Shown in pieces: positions 10,577-38,000 of a stretch of 38,175 bases of DNA. The notes below the pieces were generated by a model. That model saw nothing but the letters and a program-made list of their open reading frames with translations, searched no databases and had not been told where the DNA came from. The position numbers and the translations under genes were made by a program. The first letter of the stretch is position 1; each line of letters starts with the position of its first letter. Source of the stretch: a virus; IMG/VR virus record IMGVR_UViG_3300010293_000015, positions 1 through 38,175 of that record; one strand, given 5' to 3'.

Positions 10577-10785
10577 TGCAACCCCGATGGCAATCGTTCA
10601 TAGAGGCCTGGGCTAACATCGGAGTAGGTTTCGGCCTGGCTCTACTGACCCAATTAATCGTTTTCCCGATGTACGGAATGGAGATTGATTTAACCGGCAA
10701 CCTTCAGATAGGGATGATATTCACGGGGATCAGCTTGGGGCGTTCATATTTTCTCAGGAGGGCTTTCAATAAATGGCATCGGTAG
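10576..10785 (+). CDS. Two-TM DUF7220-like phage membrane protein
   Basis: 69 residues. SFIEAWANIGVGFGLALLTQ followed by LIVFPMYG, then NLQIGMIFTGISLGRSYFLR and RAFN. This matches a widespread small phage inner-membrane family (DUF7220 by memory) with two helices and the RSYxLRRxFN end. Function unknown. The start overlaps the previous stop; the next gene starts inside its last codons. Confidence 0.7.
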   Translation: MQPRWQSFIEAWANIGVGFGLALLTQLIVFPMYGMEIDLTGNLQIGMIFTGISLGRSYFLRRAFNKWHR

Positions 10786-13019
10786 AGTATGAGCAATTCC
10801 TGGAATCAAAAAGGTTAAAGATAGAGGACGTGGGGAGAGAAGTAAGCAGAGATGAAATCAACCCCATCCTGTTTGACTTCCAGAAGGATATTGTTTGCTG
10901 GGCGGTGAAGAAGGGCCGATGCGCCGTATTTCTGGATACGGGGCTCGGGAAGACATTCATCCAACTGGAGTGGGCTCGTTTGATCGGTAAGAAAACTCTA
11001 GTTATTGCCCCGCTTTCCGTGGCCCGGCAGACAGTCCGGGAGGGAAAGAAGATCGGCATATCGGTTAATTATGTTAGGTCTGCCGAGGACATGGTGGAAG
11101 GCATAAACATAACGAATTATGAAATGGTCGAAAACTTCAATGCTGAGGATGCAGAGGCCATTGTGCTTGATGAAAGCAGTATCCTCAAGAGCCTCGCCGG
11201 GAAGACTAAACAAAAGCTTATCGAAAAGTTTTACCAAATAAAATATAAGTTATGCTGTACGGCGACTCCTGCCCCGAACGACTTCATCGAGTTAGGAAAC
11301 CATACCGCATTCCTGGGGATATGCACCCAACAAGAAATGCTGGCCATGTTTTTCATCAATGCCAACAAGGAGCATACTTTTATTTATGGGGACTTGATCC
11401 TGACAAAGAAAGGTTCTAATGCCAACGGGACCGAGTGGAGATTGAAACACCACGCCGAGGAAGCCTTCTTTAAGTGGATGGCTAAGTGGTCGATAACGAT
11501 GACCAAACCGTCAGACATTGGATATTCCGATGATGGGTTCATCCTCCCGCCATTAAATATAAATCCCTCATTCGCTCACGTTGATTATCGTCCCAACAAC
11601 CAGTTGTTTTTCACTGGACTTTCAGGGATTCAAGATCGGGTGAAAGTTAGGGTACGTTCGGCCGGTAGGAAGGCGGAGAAAATACCGGAATTAATAAACG
11701 GATCAGATGGCCAATGGATTATATGGTGCGGACTGGACGAAGAGGCAAAGCTGGCAAGGGAATTGCTCAATGGATTTTCACGGGAAGTAAAAGGATCGGA
11801 CCCTCCAGATGTTAAGGCATCCACGTTTGAGGACTTTCAAGATGGAAAATTTAAGGTACTAATCACAAAGCCAAAGATCGGGGCATTCGGGATGAATTTT
11901 CAAAATGCCTCAAATATGATATTTTTGGGCTTGAATGATTCGTGGGAAACCTATTATCAGGCTATTCGTCGGGAGTGGAGATTTGGGCAGAAGAAACCTG
12001 TCAATGTTTATCTTCTGCTTTCAGATGTTGAACGGGAAATTTATGACAACATCCAACGCAAGGATAAACAGGCATACCGCCTGCGAACTAAAATGATCGA
12101 GCAGTTAAAGGATTATGAAAAAGAAGAATTGTGGGGAGGGTCTATGGTCAAGGAAAAATACGAGGAGGAAACCATCAAAGAGGATGGGTGGGTAGCAATG
12201 CGGGGGGATTCAGTAGAACGGTTGAAAGAACTGGACGACAATTCCATCGACCTGTCTATATATTCTCCCCCGTTTGCGGATCTTTTCGTCTATTCCAATT
12301 CCGATCGGGATTTAGGAAACTGCCGTAATTGGGATGAGTTTTTCAAACATTACTTTTTCATAATCCAATCCGTACTCCGGGTTACTAAGCCGGGCCGGTT
12401 ATCATGCGTTCATACATCAGACATTCCGGCCATGGCCAACCGGGATGGATACATCGGGCTTAGAGACTTCCCCGGAGAGGTTATCCGATGGCATGAAAAG
12501 GCAGGCTGGATATTCGTGGGGCGGATATTCATTCAGAAAAACCCACAGGCCCAGGCCATCCGGGTAAAGTGCAAATCCCTTCTCTTTGTTCAAATGCAGA
12601 AGGATTCCAGTCATTCCCGCCCCGCGCTAATTGATCAGGTGCTAATCTTCAAGAAGCCCGGAGAGAATCAAAAGCCGGTTGAGCCGGTAAAGAATGGCGA
12701 GATGAATAACGAAATCTGGATCAGGTGGGCTCACGGGGTATGGACCGACATAAATGAAACCGAAACCCTTCAATACTATTCGGCGAGGGCGAAAGAAGAC
12801 GAAAAGCATATTTGTCCGCTTCAACTTGGGACCATTGAACGGTGCATTAAGCTCTACTCTAATCCCGGAGAAACTGTTTTGACCCCGTTTATGGGTATTG
12901 GGTCAGAGGCGTACATGGCGGTAAAGTTGGGAAGAAAGGCCAAGGGGATCGAATTGAAGGAATCCTATTACCGGACGGCAATACAAAATCTGCAATCAAT
13001 CCAAAGGACATTATTATGA
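10773..13019 (+). CDS. SNF2-like helicase fused to beta-class DNA methyltransferase
   Basis: 748 residues. The N-terminal half is an SF2 helicase: Walker A GLGKT (57-61), Walker B DESS (133-136), motif III CTATPAPND, and the motif VI region AIRREWRFGQKKPVNVYLL. The C-terminal 260 residues are a SAM-dependent amino-methyltransferase: catalytic SPPF at 498-501, then FMGIGSEAYMAVKLGRKAKG near 706. Catalytic motif before SAM motif is the beta-class order (N4-cytosine or N6-adenine). Phages are known to carry such fusions, probably to modify their DNA and evade restriction. GGAGG precedes the ATG. Target sequence cannot be predicted. Confidence 0.85.
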   Translation: MASVEYEQFLESKRLKIEDVGREVSRDEINPILFDFQKDIVCWAVKKGRCAVFLDTGLGKTFIQLEWARLIGKKTLVIAPLSVARQTVREGKKIGISVNYVRSAEDMVEGINITNYEMVENFNAEDAEAIVLDESSILKSLAGKTKQKLIEKFYQIKYKLCCTATPAPNDFIELGNHTAFLGICTQQEMLAMFFINANKEHTFIYGDLILTKKGSNANGTEWRLKHHAEEAFFKWMAKWSITMTKPSDIGYSDDGFILPPLNINPSFAHVDYRPNNQLFFTGLSGIQDRVKVRVRSAGRKAEKIPELINGSDGQWIIWCGLDEEAKLARELLNGFSREVKGSDPPDVKASTFEDFQDGKFKVLITKPKIGAFGMNFQNASNMIFLGLNDSWETYYQAIRREWRFGQKKPVNVYLLLSDVEREIYDNIQRKDKQAYRLRTKMIEQLKDYEKEELWGGSMVKEKYEEETIKEDGWVAMRGDSVERLKELDDNSIDLSIYSPPFADLFVYSNSDRDLGNCRNWDEFFKHYFFIIQSVLRVTKPGRLSCVHTSDIPAMANRDGYIGLRDFPGEVIRWHEKAGWIFVGRIFIQKNPQAQAIRVKCKSLLFVQMQKDSSHSRPALIDQVLIFKKPGENQKPVEPVKNGEMNNEIWIRWAHGVWTDINETETLQYYSARAKEDEKHICPLQLGTIERCIKLYSNPGETVLTPFMGIGSEAYMAVKLGRKAKGIELKESYYRTAIQNLQSIQRTLL

Positions 13020-13222
13020 CCCCGCAGGCCCAGGTCTTGAACCTAATCCGTTCCCGGAAGGTTGTCTGGATCCGGGAGATTATCCAGAAGTGCGCGACTT
13101 GGAAACACGCCACTATCATGGGGAGGCTGAAAAAGAAGGGATACCCGATTGTGAACGTATCACCCCCAGGGTATGAGGCCTGTTACCATTGGGTTGAGGT
13201 GGGGCAGATAAAACTTTTGTGA
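13016..13222 (+). CDS. Small winged-helix DNA-binding protein
   Basis: 68 residues. QVLNLIRSRKVVWIREII, then WKHATIMGRLKKKGYPIVNV matches the helix-turn-helix plus wing pattern of short phage HTH proteins. It overlaps the helicase-methyltransferase stop (ATGA), so it is probably translationally coupled to it. It may regulate that gene or act with it. Its stop codon lies inside the first 11-bp direct repeat. Confidence 0.6.
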   Translation: MTPQAQVLNLIRSRKVVWIREIIQKCATWKHATIMGRLKKKGYPIVNVSPPGYEACYHWVEVGQIKLL

Positions 13223-13229
13223 CACGAGG
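13219..13229 (+). repeat. Left 11-bp direct repeat flanking the C5 methyltransferase cassette
   Basis: GTGACACGAGG occurs at 13219-13229 and again, identical and in the same orientation, at 14360-14370. The pair brackets the methyltransferase cassette exactly. Confidence 0.5.
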
Positions 13230-13241
13230 ATCAGGGGTTAC

Positions 13242-14321
13242 ATGAATTACTATAACGACAACGATCCGAAGGCGTGCGCGTGGTTGCGCGAGTTGATCGC
13301 GCAAGGCCACTTGCCGCCGGGGACCGTTGACGAAAGGAGCATCCTTGAGATTGAGCCAATCGACCTTGCCGGATTCGACCAGTGCCACTTCTTCGCCGGG
13401 ATCGGAGGCTGGCCCCTCGCCCTGCGGTGGGCCGGACTCGAAGGCGTTGCCGGGATCTGGACCGGGTCATGTCCGTGTCAGCCGCTTTCGTGCGCTGGTA
13501 AAAGACAGGGACACGCCGATGAGCGCCACCTTTGGCCCGCTTTTTACCGCCTCATCGCCGAGTGCCGTCCTGCAACGATCTTTGGAGAGCAAGTTGCGTC
13601 AAAAGATGGACGTGAATGGTTCGCCGGAGTTCGTCTTGACCTGGAAGACCTGGGATATGCCTGCGGGGGAGCCGATCTGTGCGCTGCGGGCGTCGGAGCG
13701 CCGCACCGGAGACAAAGGCTGTTCTGGGTGGCCGACGCCGATTGTTTCGGACACACGGCACAGCGGATTCAGCGAGCACAGCAAGCACGACAAGTTGGTA
13801 TATGTGGCGCAACTGGCCACGTGGCCGACGCCGACCACGCAGCGACAGGTCGAGCCAGAGAAGGCGGACAGGGAGAATGCCAAGGGGAACTGGCAGGGAG
13901 TGACGGGGCTTGTGGGCTGGGCGACGCCATGTGCTCAGGGCGACTCGACTGGCGGAGGGTGCCTCGGCGACGCGATGAAGAAGGCCGCAGGATTGAAGCG
14001 ACCGAGCGGGGCCAGTTACGGGACGAAGTTGAACGAGCAAGTGCTCCTTGCGATTGGTCCCGATGCGACATCCTGCCCTGCTGGGACGGGAAAGCGCGGT
14101 GTGTTGAATCCCAACCACAGCAGATGGCTGATGGGGTATCCGCTCACCTGGACGCTCTGCGGAATGCTGGCCTTTCTGAAGACCAAATCGGCGCGGCGGT
14201 CAGCACGTTCCCGCTCACTGAGCATGCCGTCGGGCGCACGATGCTTCTCCGGGGCATGGGAAACGCGATAATTCCGCAACTTGCGGCACAGTTTATCCTT
14301 GCATGGCGCGAGTGTGTGTAG
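13242..14321 (+). CDS. C5 cytosine DNA methyltransferase
   Basis: 359 residues. Motif I FFAGIGG (50-56), motif IV SCPCQP with catalytic Cys79, motif VI FGEQVASKDG (EQV in place of the usual ENV), motif VIII HRRQRLFWVADAD, a variable target-recognition region, and motif X GNAIIPQLAAQFI at the end. This is the Dcm/HhaI family, which transfers a methyl group to C5 of cytosine. As a phage orphan enzyme it probably protects against restriction. The gene is clearly more GC-rich than its neighbours, and 11-bp direct repeats flank it. A second long frame overlaps it almost completely. Confidence 0.88.
   Translation: MNYYNDNDPKACAWLRELIAQGHLPPGTVDERSILEIEPIDLAGFDQCHFFAGIGGWPLALRWAGLEGVAGIWTGSCPCQPLSCAGKRQGHADERHLWPAFYRLIAECRPATIFGEQVASKDGREWFAGVRLDLEDLGYACGGADLCAAGVGAPHRRQRLFWVADADCFGHTAQRIQRAQQARQVGICGATGHVADADHAATGRAREGGQGECQGELAGSDGACGLGDAMCSGRLDWRRVPRRRDEEGRRIEATERGQLRDEVERASAPCDWSRCDILPCWDGKARCVESQPQQMADGVSAHLDALRNAGLSEDQIGAAVSTFPLTEHAVGRTMLLRGMGNAIIPQLAAQFILAWRECV
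13351..14271 (+). CDS. Overprinted gene inside the C5 methyltransferase gene
   Basis: A frame open for more than 300 codons, +1 relative to the methyltransferase. TTG starts at 13345 and 13351 follow AAAGGAG (13333-13339). The product starts SQSTLPDST and contains VSRFRALVKDRDTP, GSPEFVLTWKTWDMPAGEP, ICALRASERRTG, GWPTP and NPNHSRWLMGYPLTW. I recall a large family of phage and bacterial proteins with exactly these motifs, usually left as hypothetical. The overlap is thus probably a conserved dual-coding pair, not chance. Function unknown; Ser/Thr/Pro-rich N-terminus. Confidence 0.55.
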   Translation: MSQSTLPDSTSATSSPGSEAGPSPCGGPDSKALPGSGPGHVRVSRFRALVKDRDTPMSATFGPLFTASSPSAVLQRSLESKLRQKMDVNGSPEFVLTWKTWDMPAGEPICALRASERRTGDKGCSGWPTPIVSDTRHSGFSEHSKHDKLVYVAQLATWPTPTTQRQVEPEKADRENAKGNWQGVTGLVGWATPCAQGDSTGGGCLGDAMKKAAGLKRPSGASYGTKLNEQVLLAIGPDATSCPAGTGKRGVLNPNHSRWLMGYPLTWTLCGMLAFLKTKSARRSARSRSLSMPSGARCFSGAWETR

Positions 14322-14700: not shown

Positions 14701-14803
14701 GTAGGTGGCTTATCTCCGGGTAGCTCCCGGGGAGACAGCCCCAGCTCCTGGAGGGTTGCCACCTACCTACCTAAAAAAGTTATCCAGGGCCACAGGAGAA
14801 AAA
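14701..14803 (+). promoter_or_regulatory. Branched 5' leader of the DUF559 gene (riboswitch-like)
   Basis: A closing stem GTAGGTGGC (14701-14709) with GCCACCTAC (14758-14766) encloses two hairpins: a TCTCCGGG/CCCGG-GGAGA arm and a CCAG-CTC-CTGG arm, giving a three-way junction. A further CTAC repeat just after the stem could compete for the 5' strand. The ribosome site (AGGAG) lies about 30 bases downstream. It may be a regulatory leader or a processed small RNA. No known riboswitch class matched. Confidence 0.5.
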
Positions 14804-15178
14804 ATGTGCTCTATCCGTCATTTAGTAAATCCCATAAAATATAAACAGGCTAAAGAGATGCGTAGAAATCCTACGCCCGCTGAATATAAGTTGTGGCATG
14901 AAATCAGGGGGAAAAAGATTGGTGTACGTTTTGGGAGACAAAGAGTAGTCCGAGGGTATATTGTTGATTTCTATTGCCCTAGTATGAAATTAATTGTAGA
15001 AGTTGATGGAAATATTCATTTGCAAAAAGAGCAAAAAGAAAGGGATAAATTTAGAGAGACCATTTTAAACAGCATTGGTTTTCGGGTTTTAAGAATATCA
15101 AATGATATGGTTCTTAATCATATCTCTTTAGCATTAGATCAAATTAGGAGGGCTATTGATGAAGCCCGCCATGCTTAA
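14804..15178 (+). CDS. DUF559 (Vsr-like) endonuclease
   Basis: 124 residues from the ATG at 14804 with AGGAG upstream. RRNPTPAEYKLWHEIRGKKI (Glu27), VRFGRQRVV, GYIVDFYCPS (Asp55) and KLIVEVDGNIH (Glu66, Asp68, His72) are the hallmarks of DUF559, a PD-(D/E)XK family related to the Vsr mismatch endonuclease. Substrate unknown. The gene is AT-rich compared with the genes to its left, suggesting recent acquisition along with the next gene. It overlaps the Prim-Pol gene by 20 bases. Confidence 0.85.
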   Translation: MCSIRHLVNPIKYKQAKEMRRNPTPAEYKLWHEIRGKKIGVRFGRQRVVRGYIVDFYCPSMKLIVEVDGNIHLQKEQKERDKFRETILNSIGFRVLRISNDMVLNHISLALDQIRRAIDEARHA

Positions 15179-16814
15179 TCACGCGATTTCTTACCTAAAA
15201 GATTATGGTTTCAGCGTTATCCCCCTGAACCCATCTTGCGAAGAGGAAAGAAGCAAGCGGCCTTTGATAAAATGGGCGGAGTTTCAAACCAGAAAGCCAA
15301 CCGAAAAGGAAATAATTTCTTGGTGGAATTCATGGCCCGATGCGATGATTGGTTTGGTTTGCGGACCTATATCTAATTTGTTTGTCCTAGATGCTGACAC
15401 TGAATATGCTCATAAAGAAATTGAAGAGAATCTTCCTGAGGGATTTCTTTGTCCGATCGTAAAGACTCCTAGAGGATGGCATTATTGGTTTAGATTTACA
15501 AAAGGATTAAGGAATTCCAATAATGGAAAGATCCATTGTCGCGGGGAAGGCGGCTATGTTGTTGCTCCTCCCAGTAGAAAAGAAGATGGATCAGAGTATA
15601 AATTTTTATTAAAGCCGTCAACCGATTGTCCCTTCCCCTATAAACCCCATTCATTAAACAAATTAATAAATGATAATGCAGGGTTAGAAAATCAAAAAAA
15701 AGAGGATAGCTATGACCACACAAAACCACATTTGACCACAACTGACCACAAATTATTTAATATCGGTTCAAGGGATGATGATCTTTTTCATCTTGCAAAT
15801 GTTCTTTTTAAGGGAGGAGAAAGTGAACAATACATAAGTGAAGTTATTGAAAACATTGCATTAAATGTATGCAATCCTCCATTCTCTTTATCAGATGCAA
15901 GAGTAAAAGTTTCGTCTGCTTTGGACCGGAAGAATAGGTCAGACCGAAACATAGCCAATGAGGTTTATGAGTTCATACTGACCACAAGTGGCCACATAAT
16001 GACCACAGATGTCCACAACGGACTACAAGTGACCACAAGACAGGATAAAAAAGCGGTTGTTATGGCTCTCCTCAGATTGCTTGATGATGGAATTATAGAA
16101 AGGTATGGGACAAGGAACGGTTCGTACCGTAGGGTTGAAGATCAGGCTCCAGACATAGACATATTTGAATCAGCGGAATCCCCTCTTTCATTGCATTACC
16201 CTCTTGGTGTGGAAAAGCTGGTCTACACCATGCCGAAGTCAATAATCGTCGTCGCTGGTGAGTCCGACGCCGGGAAGACAGCCTTTCTTTTAAGCTTCTC
16301 CATGCTAAATATGGATAACCATAACATAATTTACTATTCATCAGAGATGGGAGCAACGGAGTTGCGGTCAAGAATAGAGAAATTTGAACGCCCGATTGAT
16401 GACTGGAAGAAGGTTCAATTCAAGGAACGCTCCTCAAACTTCCAGGACCTTATCCAAAAAGATTCAATAAATATAATAGATTACCTTGAACTATCTGATG
16501 ATTTTTACAGGGTTGGAGCCCAAATAAAGGGAATCTTTGATAAACTTAAATCCGGCATTGCCATTATAGCCCTACAAAAGAAGATCGGGGCCGAACTCGC
16601 CCGGGGCGGTGACTTCACTATGGAAAAGGCCAGACTATACCTTAGCCTAAGCCGGGACAATATCTGCAAGGTTATCAAGGCAAAGAACTGGGTCAACCCA
16701 ATGGTGAAACCTACCGGAAAGGCCAAGAAGTTTGTCCTCCTGCATGGCTGCAAGTTCTTGGCAAAAACTGAATGGATAATGGCTGACGAATTAGACAGGG
16801 CGAAAGATGTTTGA
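15159..16814 (+). CDS. Primase-polymerase (Prim-Pol) fused to RecA/DnaB-like helicase
   Basis: 551 residues from the ATG at 15159, seven bases after AGGAGG. The N-terminal Prim-Pol domain has FVLDADTE (Asp78, Asp80), RGWHYWFR (His108) and GGYVVAPPS (132-140). The middle (about 255-325) is a winged-helix linker (VVMALLRLLDDGIIERYGTR). The C-terminal ATPase has Walker A GESDAGKT (about 367-374), YYSSEMG and a DnaB-like end. It would prime and unwind DNA for host polymerase, since no phage polymerase is seen. The DNA for the linker carries iteron-like repeats. The first half is AT-rich. Confidence 0.85.
   Translation: MKPAMLNHAISYLKDYGFSVIPLNPSCEEERSKRPLIKWAEFQTRKPTEKEIISWWNSWPDAMIGLVCGPISNLFVLDADTEYAHKEIEENLPEGFLCPIVKTPRGWHYWFRFTKGLRNSNNGKIHCRGEGGYVVAPPSRKEDGSEYKFLLKPSTDCPFPYKPHSLNKLINDNAGLENQKKEDSYDHTKPHLTTTDHKLFNIGSRDDDLFHLANVLFKGGESEQYISEVIENIALNVCNPPFSLSDARVKVSSALDRKNRSDRNIANEVYEFILTTSGHIMTTDVHNGLQVTTRQDKKAVVMALLRLLDDGIIERYGTRNGSYRRVEDQAPDIDIFESAESPLSLHYPLGVEKLVYTMPKSIIVVAGESDAGKTAFLLSFSMLNMDNHNIIYYSSEMGATELRSRIEKFERPIDDWKKVQFKERSSNFQDLIQKDSINIIDYLELSDDFYRVGAQIKGIFDKLKSGIAIIALQKKIGAELARGGDFTMEKARLYLSLSRDNICKVIKAKNWVNPMVKPTGKAKKFVLLHGCKFLAKTEWIMADELDRAKDV
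15711..15750. repeat. Iteron-like array 1 inside the Prim-Pol gene
   Basis: Four tandem units end in ACCACA at an exact 10-base period: 15713-15720, 15724-15730, 15733-15740 and 15743-15750 (core TGACCACA, second unit AACCACA). The period is not a multiple of three, so it is a DNA-level and not a protein-level repeat. It may be a replication origin or protein-binding array. Confidence 0.55.
15979..16037. repeat. Iteron-like array 2 inside the Prim-Pol gene
   Basis: Six units of GACCACA or close variants (GGCCACA, GTCCACA, GACTACA) start at 15980, 15990, 16001, 16011, 16021 and 16031, a spacing of 10-11 bases. They lie about 230 bases after array 1, on the same helical phase within each array. 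Confidence 0.55.
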
Positions 16815-17232: not shown

Positions 17233-17376
17233 ATGAATATTAGACCAGAAGAAAAATTGGCAATGGAAATTATTAAATTGGCAATCAGGGATATTCTTAA
17301 ACCTAAATCTATCCCAAGGTCAAAAATTAAAAAATTCGCAAAAAATCCCCCCATAAATTGCAATAATTTAATATGA
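17233..17376 (+). CDS. 47-residue hypothetical protein
   Basis: GGGAGGAG lies 5-12 bases before the ATG. MNIRPEEKLAMEIIKLAIRD is an acidic/hydrophobic helix; the second half is Lys-rich (RSKIKKFAKNPP). Strongly AT-rich. The stop overlaps the next ATG (ATGA), so it is in one operon with the HTH protein. No family recognised. Confidence 0.6.
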   Translation: MNIRPEEKLAMEIIKLAIRDILKPKSIPRSKIKKFAKNPPINCNNLI

Positions 17377-17591
17377 AACGCGGCTGGCTCACAGGCCAAG
17401 ATAGTATCGCCTGCTACATGAACATCTGCAAGGATACTCTCTTGGTCTGGCAAAAAAAATACCACCTACCTATCGTCAAAGTCGGAAAACTATGGTGCGC
17501 TGTCGAAAGAGACCTTGACGAATGGCTCACAACCCCAGTAAAAAAACGCAGAAAACTTAAAAACTCCCCCCCAAAACCCCCACAAACCTGA
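17373..17591 (+). CDS. Excisionase-like helix-turn-helix protein
   Basis: 72 residues. GWLTGQDSIACYMNICKDTL, then WQKKYHLPIVKVGKLWCAVE and RDLDEWL is the MerR/HTH_17 excisionase-type winged helix. The end is Lys/Pro-rich. It could be a DNA-bending factor or transcription regulator. No integrase is present, so a role in excision is unlikely here. It lies just before the lysis and packaging genes, where it might control the late switch (inference). Confidence 0.7.
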   Translation: MKRGWLTGQDSIACYMNICKDTLLVWQKKYHLPIVKVGKLWCAVERDLDEWLTTPVKKRRKLKNSPPKPPQT

Positions 17592-22262: not shown

Positions 22263-22508
22263 ATGTGGTCATCGGCACGCTGTATGAAATGTCAAGCCCG
22301 TAGTTCATTATTTTTTGCCGACCCTGAGGCTCCATGGAAGAGATATGAATTTGATAAATCATTAATGGGAATGAGAACGGCTCTTTGGCAACAAAACCAT
22401 ATCTGTAAACCTGAAAATATTGAAAAAGTTAAAAAATTTCGCAAGGAAGGTTATGGTCCATTTTCAGAAGAATTCCAAAATTATCTTAAAGAACTGGAGG
22501 AACAATAA
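22263..22508 (+). CDS. Hypothetical 81-residue protein
   Basis: Begins MWSSARCMKCQARSSLFFAD with a CxxC pair and continues as a charged helix. It starts one base after the upstream stop with AAAAGGAGGAGG before it. More AT-rich than its neighbours, suggesting an inserted gene between portal and scaffold. No family recognised. Confidence 0.6.
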   Translation: MWSSARCMKCQARSSLFFADPEAPWKRYEFDKSLMGMRTALWQQNHICKPENIEKVKKFRKEGYGPFSEEFQNYLKELEEQ

Positions 22509-35008: not shown

Positions 35009-38000
35009 TGCAGGAATTCAACACCAGCCGCCTAAAAATAAACCCTCTTTTTGATACGTCCAGGCTTCAGAGGAACCCTATGGCCCCCCGGGAGGATGTC
35101 CCCGAGCCGCCCTCTTTTGACTGGGATGGAGTGGCCGAAGGGTACAATTTTGCCTATCGAAGCCCGGAAGACCCCCAGATAAAAGCGAACCCACGTTTAG
35201 AGTTACCCCAAGTAAAAATTCCCCGTGGTGGTTTTTCTTTAATTGGAACCCCTAGTGAAAGTTGGCTAGAATATCAATTTAGAAAATCTTACCTAGCTTA
35301 TGAACCTAAAAAAGAGGAAAGGCCATGGTGGGACAAGCCTTTATGGGGTAACCTTCCAGAGCCGATTCCTTTCGACATTGACACATATCTACAAGAAATA
35401 AAGGCTCCAAAGGTGAATCTTGAGGATCCACCGGAAGATGGAATAGCCCGGGCCTTGTGGCCAGTAACGAAACGACTGATGGCTTTCGGATATGCAGCAC
35501 CAGCAGCCCAAAATAGGGCATTAGGGGGGCTTTTCACTCACCTTGATTTGATTGCCCAATTTATCGCAGAAAAGACTGGTACAGAACGAGGCGGGTTATT
35601 TGAGGATATGGCTAAAGTTTTTGAGTCAAATATCCCGTATTGGCAGAAAAGAGCCGATAAATACGGACCTGGGTTTTTTGATGAACTTGCCGCAGAAGTA
35701 ACAGCCGCACCTATTGGTATTGCTCAATTTCTTTTAGACTTGGGGAGTTATTTAACCTTTCCGTATGCAGCCGGATCTCAAAAGGCAAAAATAGAAGGGG
35801 ATAATGAAGTTATTCATGGACTCGTAGAGGCTGCTAAAACGGGTATTCTGGGGTATCTTTTCCACCTCATGGCCCCATTGAAAAAATATCTCCAAGCCCC
35901 GTTGATGGGTTTAACTTTCGCTGTTCAATCAGCTATTGAAGGGGGAAGCCCAAAGGAAATATCAAAGGGAATGCTTACTGGAATGATATTCTCCCTTGGA
36001 ACCCCAGGACACGCACTTGGCCTGAACGAAGTCCGAGCCGATTTGATGAAACGGTACGTTCGAGAGGAGGCCAGGAAGCCAAAAGTTGAGCCCCGGGTGT
36101 CCGAACCCACCACCCCGCCGACTCCTCCCGGCGGTCCCCTTCCCGAAAGGACACCCGGGGAACCCCCTACGAAGCCTCCCATTGCAGCGCCTTTTCCCGA
36201 GACGCCCGCAGCCCGCCCGGGGGAGCCTAAAAGAATCATTCCGGAAGAGTTTATCGTTGAGCCCCGGGTGTCCGATGCAGAGCCTGGCAAGGCCGTGGAG
36301 TTCCCCGAGATGCCCGCAGTTGGTAATATACCTTTCGCCCCCGAAGCCGGGTTCAAAAGAAGAGAGCCGGAAGTGCGACCCGTCGAGGGAGAAATCACCC
36401 GCCGAAGCGATATTGTCCGCCTTCTAACCGAAAAGCTGGACATCCCCATCAGGACCGGGCGATTCCGGGATAAGGCCCTTGGAATCTTCAAGGTGGGCCC
36501 GGAGGTTATCAGGACCCGGCAGGCCAACGACATTGAGGTCATCTCCCACGAGATCGGCCACGCCCTGCAAAAGTTCCTCTACCCGGAGGCCCGGGACGCT
36601 ACCGGACTCACCGCGCAGCCGTTCAGGGGGTTCGAGGGAGAGCTTACGCCCATGGCCACCACGCCTCGGCCCGGGCAGTCAAACGTCCCCGAGGGGTTCG
36701 CGGAATTCACTCGCCTTTACATCACCGACCCGGCCAAGGCCAGGGAGAAAGCGCCTTCCTTCTACCAGCACTTCGAGCATCTTCTGGACTCCCGGGCGCC
36801 GGAGGCCAAGGAAATCATGCTGGAGGCCCGGGGGCAATACGAGAAATGGCTGAAGCAACCCGCCCTCCAGCGGGTACTTTCCCAGGTATCGGTAGGGGAA
36901 AACCAGGCCCGGCCTACCACCTGGACGGACATACAAACGTGGTTCCTGGACGATCTTTACCCCCTTAAAAAGGCTGTTAGGGAGATGACCGGGGGAGAGG
37001 CCATCCCCACCGCCAAGAACCCCTATGAACTGGCCCGCCTCCTCCGCGGGTGGCAAGGTAAACCAGAAGCATTTATTAAACATTCTCCCTTTAAATTCAA
37101 AACCTATGAGGATATGGGGAAACCACTTAAAGAAATACTCTCGGGCATAAAAGACTTGGATGAGTTAAGGGGTTATTTAATATCCAAGCATGGGCTGGAG
37201 CTTGAAAGGGCGGGGATTGAAACTGGACTTCGTCCGATGGATATGCAGAAATTAGTTACTGATTTTGAACCCAAATTTGGCAAGAAAATGAAGGACATAG
37301 TTGAATACCAAAATCATCTTTTAGATTATCTTTTAGATAGCGGGTTAACCACCAAAGAATTTCATCAAAACATGAAATCCAAATATGCTTTTTATGTTCC
37401 TTTTTATCGTGTTATGGACACCGCTAAAAATACAACCGCAGGGGAGGGCCTCGAAGCCTTCATGCCAATAAAGACGATCAAGGGAAGCTGGCGGGACATC
37501 CAAGACCCGCTTGAGTCCATCATCAAGAATACTTATCTTTACATCCACCTGGCCGAAAAGAACGCCATCGGAAAGGCTATTGTTGCCTTGGGGGAAAGCA
37601 GAGAGGGAATGGGGAAGTATATTGAAAAAATACCTACTCCTTTGAAAAAGACTGAAATAAAACTAGAGGAAATATTCACAAAACAGGAATTGCAAAAACT
37701 GGCCGAATCTGGGATTGAGGTTCCTGAACAGTTTGAAATATTTAGACCGTCGGCATTTACGCCAAAGGAAAACGTAATAGCCGTATGGGAAGAAGGGAAA
37801 AAGACCCTTTACCAAGTATCCCCGGAAATATCCAGGGCCTTCCATGCCCTTGACCGGGAGAGCATGAGTGGGTTGATGCGACTCCTTTCGGTCCCCGCCT
37901 CCTGGCTGCGGGCCGGAGCCACCTTGACCCCGGAATTCATAGCCCGGAACCCTCTCCGTGACCAGTTTTCAGCTTTTGTTTATTCCAAATATGGGTTCAT

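Follow-up and report, generated by a model that had tools for sequence, protein, structure and literature searches.

Two arrays of short direct repeats, set in step with the turns of the DNA helix, lie within a primase-helicase gene of the virus represented by IMG/VR record IMGVR_UViG_3300010293_000015; the whole stretch of 38,175 nucleotides analysed is referred to here as the window. These arrays are probably iterons read by the winged helix of their own gene's product, and the gene itself would then carry the replication origin. In related genes the geometry of the arrays is conserved, their word changes from lineage to lineage, and the word covaries with the recognition helix of the winged helix. 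Binding by this domain is inferred from the covariation, and an origin function would follow the iteron model.

The primase-helicase gene and its surroundings

The gene opens with an ATG at 15159, with a TTG just before it at 15156. It comprises the following features, given in order of position.

15159..16814, plus strand: Prim-Pol / PriCT-like / winged-helix / RecA-like (DnaB_C-like) replication gene, 551 aa
15183..15617, plus strand: Prim-Pol domain (PF09250; Pfam 5.9e-26)
15601..15900, no strand: AT-rich stretch, candidate unwinding region, overlapping and following array 1 (30-36% GC against 52% for the window)
15675..15746, plus strand: linker codons, residues 173-196, predicted disordered (pLDDT <50), overlapping array 1
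15713..15750, plus strand: iteron array 1, four TGACCACA-like units in exact 10-bp steps, in the linker between the Prim-Pol and PriCT-like parts
15771..15938, plus strand: PriCT-like three-helix region, residues 205-260 (secondary structure of the model)
15951..16133, plus strand: winged helix-turn-helix domain, residues 265-325 (structure models; structural matches to winged helices)
15979..16037, plus strand: iteron array 2, six units in steps of 10, 11, 10, 10 and 10 bp, in winged-helix codons up to the recognition helix
16038..16085, plus strand: recognition helix codons, residues 294-309 (models), starting directly after the end of array 2 at 16037
16233..16742, plus strand: RecA/DnaB-like ATPase part, Walker A AGESDAGKT (DnaB_C 1.8e-4; Foldseek)

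The AlphaFold2 model of the 551-aa protein has a mean pLDDT of 87.7. The N-terminal domain belongs to the Prim-Pol family, scoring 92.3 bits against a curated PF09250 cut-off of 22.8 bits. Residues 205-260 resemble a PriCT region in the model and are named by that resemblance, Pfam giving no match there. A Pfam search matched no family to the window's winged helix, and the winged helices of relatives matched several weakly. The ATPase part reached 21.4 bits against PF03796 (DnaB helicase C-terminal domain), below the cut-off of 27, but its Foldseek matches to DnaB, RecA and KaiC make the similarity of fold clear, and it is therefore called DnaB-like only.

Several neighbouring features were recorded. 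The end of a DUF559 nuclease-like gene (14705-15178) overlaps the start of the primase gene. Further upstream, at 10773-14321, lies a protein with matches to SNF2/DEAD-like helicases and N6/N4 methyltransferases, followed by a C5 cytosine methyltransferase; these are possible DNA-modification or anti-restriction genes. A short HTH/excisionase-like open reading frame at about 17373-17591, with C-rich repeats at its end (CCCCC tracts near 17566-17588), sits in a stretch of negative GC skew. Near the right end of the window there is a perfect tandem ATCTTTTAGATT of 1.9 copies (37316-37338).

Two arrays of helically phased repeats

As the original prediction had it, there are ten copies in two arrays, four at an exact 10-base period and six at 10-11 bases. 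Units start at 15713, 15723, 15733 and 15743 in array 1, and at 15979, 15989, 16000, 16010, 16020 and 16030 in array 2; the nearest units of the two arrays have starts 236 bp apart. Six of the ten are exact copies of TGACCACA, two carry one mismatch and two carry two (15723, AAACCACA; 16020, GGACTACA). Their consensus is TGACCACA, with ACA invariant. The units are 8 bp long, non-palindromic and in direct orientation, and thus form clustered direct repeats in helical phase, as is characteristic of iteron-type origins. Elsewhere in the window the exact word occurs once, on the minus strand at 22264. The array-2 6-mer ACCACA is found four times in the array 1 linker of the window, against 0.09 expected.

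Both arrays had been placed in the linker of the protein. This holds for array 1, which overlaps the predicted disordered residues, and does not hold for array 2, which encodes residues 274-293 of the folded winged-helix domain. It had also been argued that the reading frames exclude a protein-level cause. The ten units are indeed spread over frames 0, 1 and 2, but in the in-frame copies of array 2 the protein could use Thr-Thr anyway, and in the model in-frame copies sit where winged-helix elements begin. Constraint at the level of DNA is shown instead by the out-of-frame copies together with the silent third bases, discussed below. Searches of the window against Rfam and for tRNAs gave no hits, which leaves the arrays unexplained by any known RNA element.

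The repeats exceed what protein constraint gives: 2000 protein-preserving shuffles of synonymous codons yielded at most four exact copies of TGACCACA and at most five of any 8-mer, and first-order shuffles of the whole window yielded at most three copies of any 8-mer inside 340 bp. In an early automatic test, which compared the best 8-mer of each gene with synonymous shuffles, most genes, including that of the window, fell within the null; this test was too crude, being dominated by A-rich words, and was replaced by detection of phased chains and a word-specific test. The statistics were devised after the pattern had been spotted by eye, and only the set of relatives with arrays outside the winged-helix codons comes near an independent test.

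Conservation of place and spacing among relatives

A first scan of viral sequences with the single protein returned no relative, but profile scans of viral and genome contigs yielded 108 non-redundant proteins that have the winged helix and ATPase in common, after a strict Walker A pattern filter that dropped most relatives had been relaxed. They include contigs of methanogens, Methanoperedens and deltaproteobacteria.

Relatives that keep the protein and lose the repeats would speak against the original prediction, and on this point the family is mixed but favourable. Arrays with a spacing of about 10.3 bp lie inside the gene, mostly at the same two places, in 49 of the 64 non-redundant relatives with a Prim-Pol domain. 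The other 15 (for example L086, L092, L102, L112 and L126) yielded no array above the detection threshold, whether in the gene or near it; at least L037 and L083 among the 15 have short arrays below that threshold, and some of the remainder may have degenerate or distant ones.

Across the sequences compared, the place and spacing of the arrays are kept and the word is not. The words of relatives include GACCACA, GACAACA, GTCTACA, GTCAACA, GTCCACA and GTCGTCA, as well as CGTTACA, CGTAACA, TGTGACA, CGCAACA, CCTTACA, CGGGACA and others. Among annotated relatives the closest is Methanosarcina virus MetMV (39% identical), whose arrays occupy these two places with the word CGACCACA, and vir555 (assigned to Methanomicrobiales) has a linker array with a different word, CAGTTGAA. 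Among the 44 relatives whose geometry is described below, most of those with Prim-Pol use their array 2 word again in array 1 of that gene. When other virus records were searched, the word was likewise found clustered in the primase gene; in one 35-kb record, all nine copies of TGTCTACA lie within about 320 bp.

In 44 relatives with an in-frame unit NNN-ACA or NNN-TCA, the copies are concentrated at offsets of 0, 10, 21, 31, 41, 51 and 61 bp and peak nowhere else. The first six are also the offsets in array 2 of the window, and 10, 31, 41 and 61 are out of frame. At offsets 10, 31 and 41 there are 10, 25 and 27 copies within one mismatch, against 2.3, 5.7 and 6.9 when the word of another lineage is used.

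Arrays are not confined to proteins with a Prim-Pol domain. Eleven proteins that lack it also carry arrays within the reading frame, and others have them close by outside the frame. The array of L207 lies upstream of the gene with no other open reading frame of 60 aa over it, and several other outside arrays are located in neighbouring open reading frames.

Three side observations concern the wider family. L140, L147, L171, L173 and L195, without a fused Prim-Pol, have arrays with an 11-12-bp period in neighbouring open reading frames of about 236-260 aa; their units fit the base code described below poorly, and they may form a second class. In L017 and L044 the same winged-helix/ATPase part, without Prim-Pol, is preceded by a gene start resembling the DnaB N-terminal domain, an architecture that suggests module exchange. 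Finally, the primase gene of MetMV, judged by equal length and matching stretches of sequence, seems to be present again in L016 and L040 (JAHFDG010000030.1), a viral contig and a Candidatus Methanoperedens-binned contig; the published Methanosarcina host assignment of MetMV may be worth rechecking, although a binning error is possible.

Covariation of the repeat word with the recognition helix

Mutual information was calculated between the unit bases and 510 columns of the same protein, with the columns encoding the units set aside and z scores obtained by label permutation. Such scores ignore relatedness, and kinship is addressed by column rank and by tree tests. Most relatives, though not all, align without gaps in the recognition helix.

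Base 1 of the unit tracks residue 301 (z 17.5): G goes with Arg in 12 cases and with Lys and Thr in one each; T with Ser in 17 and Asn in one; A with Asn in four, Val in three, and Ala and Thr in one each; and C with His in two and Asp in one. Base 2 tracks residues 301 (z 9.6) and 298 (z 9.1), and base 3 tracks residue 302 (z 9.5), which ranks first among all columns for this base. The best column of the PriCT region has a z of 4.6. In the models, the four residues that covary with unit bases (298, 301, 302 and 305) share one face of the helix formed by residues 294-309. Contacts of arginine with guanine and of asparagine with adenine are classical in protein-DNA recognition, and the pattern of residues and bases thus makes chemical sense. 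Base 3 is a fourfold-degenerate codon position in every in-frame unit; since it is silent there, coupling at the protein level hardly accounts for its link to residue 302.

The association recurs along the phylogeny. On a tree of the ATPase (RecA) part alone, the state of base 1 has changed at least 22 times, and nearly all phylogenetically independent pairs agree with the association, none being opposite. The pairs number eight for base 1 T with Ser (p 0.008), eight for base 1 A with Asn/Val/Ala/Thr (p 0.008), six for base 1 G with Arg/Lys (p 0.03) and seven for base 3 C with Met/Glu at residue 302 (p 0.03); base 1 C and base 3 G gave too few independent pairs to test, with three supporting in the latter case. 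Switches are also seen between close relatives. In the sister pair L082 and L087, whose RecA parts are 90% identical, ACC has become TCT in both arrays, with V to S at residue 301 and M to I at 302. Comparison of the window with L004 (73%) gives ACC against GTA, with V against R.

For arrays placed outside the winged-helix codons, six of the ten relatives with a confident register obey the residue rule (p 0.019), and L019 and L113 are examples of clear misses. A rule that also paired C with Tyr gave seven of ten on this set; Tyr had been added after these loci were viewed, and the figure of six was kept.

Taken with the conserved place and spacing, this covariation makes iterons of an initiator-bound origin the best-supported reading, as originally proposed, with the winged helix of the same protein as the likely initiator. 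Some observations count against this reading. The GC skew of the window, put forward earlier as a check, gave no clear origin signal, and across the family the inter-array DNA is poorer in GC than the locus by only about 4 points, a small dip. The 15 sub-threshold relatives and the misses in the outside-array set belong here too.

Alternative explanations

The same winged helix could read arrays that autoregulate the replication operon as an operator or road-block, or that act in partition or incompatibility, with the origin elsewhere. The covariation is equally compatible with this, and the winged-helix model resembles the repressors MecI, BlaI and MarR as well as the centromere-binding protein AspA. 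We nevertheless consider it unlikely, given that the arrays are 550-880 bp inside the gene, away from its 5′ end, that they flank an AT-rich stretch in the window, and that the protein joins the winged helix to a primase and a helicase-like ATPase.

The units might instead be template sequences preferred by the Prim-Pol in priming, as in phage NrS-1, whose PrimPol requires 5′-TTTGGTTA-3′ and also uses 5′-GTGG/GTGA-3′ (PMC8718748); the complement of the window's unit, TTGTGGTCA, includes GTGG. Such a role is improbable: the covariation peaks in the recognition helix of the winged helix rather than in the PriCT region, the unit spacing follows the turn of duplex DNA, and the NrS-1 genome has just two copies of its own site (PMC7102993).

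There is slightly less to be said for binding by another protein, either a host factor or the small HTH protein encoded at about 17373-17591, downstream of the primase gene. The word varies across lineages with the recognition helix encoded by the same gene, in a covariation scan that covered this one protein, and another binder is accordingly very improbable.

That the repeats reflect only Ser/Thr helix caps (TT, ST, VT) every 7 to 10 residues or so, or replication slippage, with no DNA function, is scarcely credible: in-frame copies do fall at winged-helix element starts and the disordered linker under array 1 could tolerate slippage products, but all three frames are used, protein-preserving shuffles fall short, both arrays share a word, geometry is conserved while the word changes, and a silent base predicts a recognition-helix residue.

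A proposed mechanism and its implications

If the arrays are iterons for the protein's own winged helix, this domain would read about one unit per turn, as the covariation and the model suggest, and several protein molecules would thereby be aligned on one face of the helix. Complexes on both arrays might then bend, strain or open the DNA between them, which is AT-rich in the window, and the fused DnaB-like ATPase and Prim-Pol primase would be delivered to the opened DNA, where replication would start. Array 1 would be free to vary because its codons fall largely in the predicted disordered linker, and array 2 would be tolerated since the winged helix uses the in-frame copies for turns that contain Ser/Thr.

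We lean towards the view that this is a self-referential initiator: the codons of its DNA-reading domain would contain the site that it reads, with word and helix switching repeatedly under a simple residue-to-base code. One stretch of DNA would then have two functions, encoding a domain and holding the site that this domain probably binds. That word and reader have switched repeatedly suggests that origin specificity is under selection; we speculate that the switching avoids cross-talk between co-infecting viruses. If true, such a code would make origins and their specificity predictable from sequence alone across a broad range of uncultured archaeal and bacterial viruses and related elements. 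Dozens of naturally matched pairs of winged helix and site are supplied by the family, and the recognition code is open to direct testing. A literature search, with subscription papers mostly outside its reach, found no description of such arrays.

Comparison with known systems

The lambda O protein is not known to have a primase or helicase domain, and the replication protein O family is absent from the Pfam matches of the whole protein described here and from the PHROGs matches. In the lambdoid origin, the iterons lie within gene O, whose product is the initiator binding them, with AT-rich DNA nearby (PMC7466680). The window's arrays resemble it in that iterons are located within the coding sequence of their (here predicted) reader. 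Lambda iterons are 19-bp imperfect inverted repeats (PMC7466680), unlike the 8-bp non-palindromic units of the window, which recur with each turn and form two arrays, the second of which covers codons of the DNA-binding domain. Judged by these matches and by the form of the units, the arrays are not a member of the lambda O/ori-lambda family, but as iterons they would work likewise.

The NrS-1 polymerase is similar in combining a phage Prim-Pol with a PriCT/HBD-like part and a helicase part, and its start is sequence-specific: an 8-nt single-strand sequence, present in two genome copies, is recognised through the HBD (PMC8718748, PMC7102993). It differs in that its two isolated sites are read on a single-stranded template, and neither an array nor covariation with a recognition helix is described there.

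Geminivirus iterons conserve their positions while their sequences diversify with the specificity of the cognate Rep (PMC12548392), and thus share the fixed place and changing word. They lie upstream of the Rep coding region, in eukaryotic single-stranded DNA viruses with a rolling-circle Rep, and the proteins are unrelated. SaPI Rep and SCCmec Cch2 are replicative helicases of mobile elements that bind iterons beside their own genes (PMC7581432); unlike here, those iterons are downstream of the gene, and the helicase and primase systems differ.

The PrimPol-PV1 supergroup unites primase, PriCT, P-loop ATPase and winged helix in one protein, and a role of the winged helix in origin recognition has been proposed for related primases, according to the accessible part of the published account (PMC5862659). 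That part places the winged helix at the C-terminus and describes no binding sites; in the protein presented here the winged helix comes before the ATPase and can be assigned likely sites.
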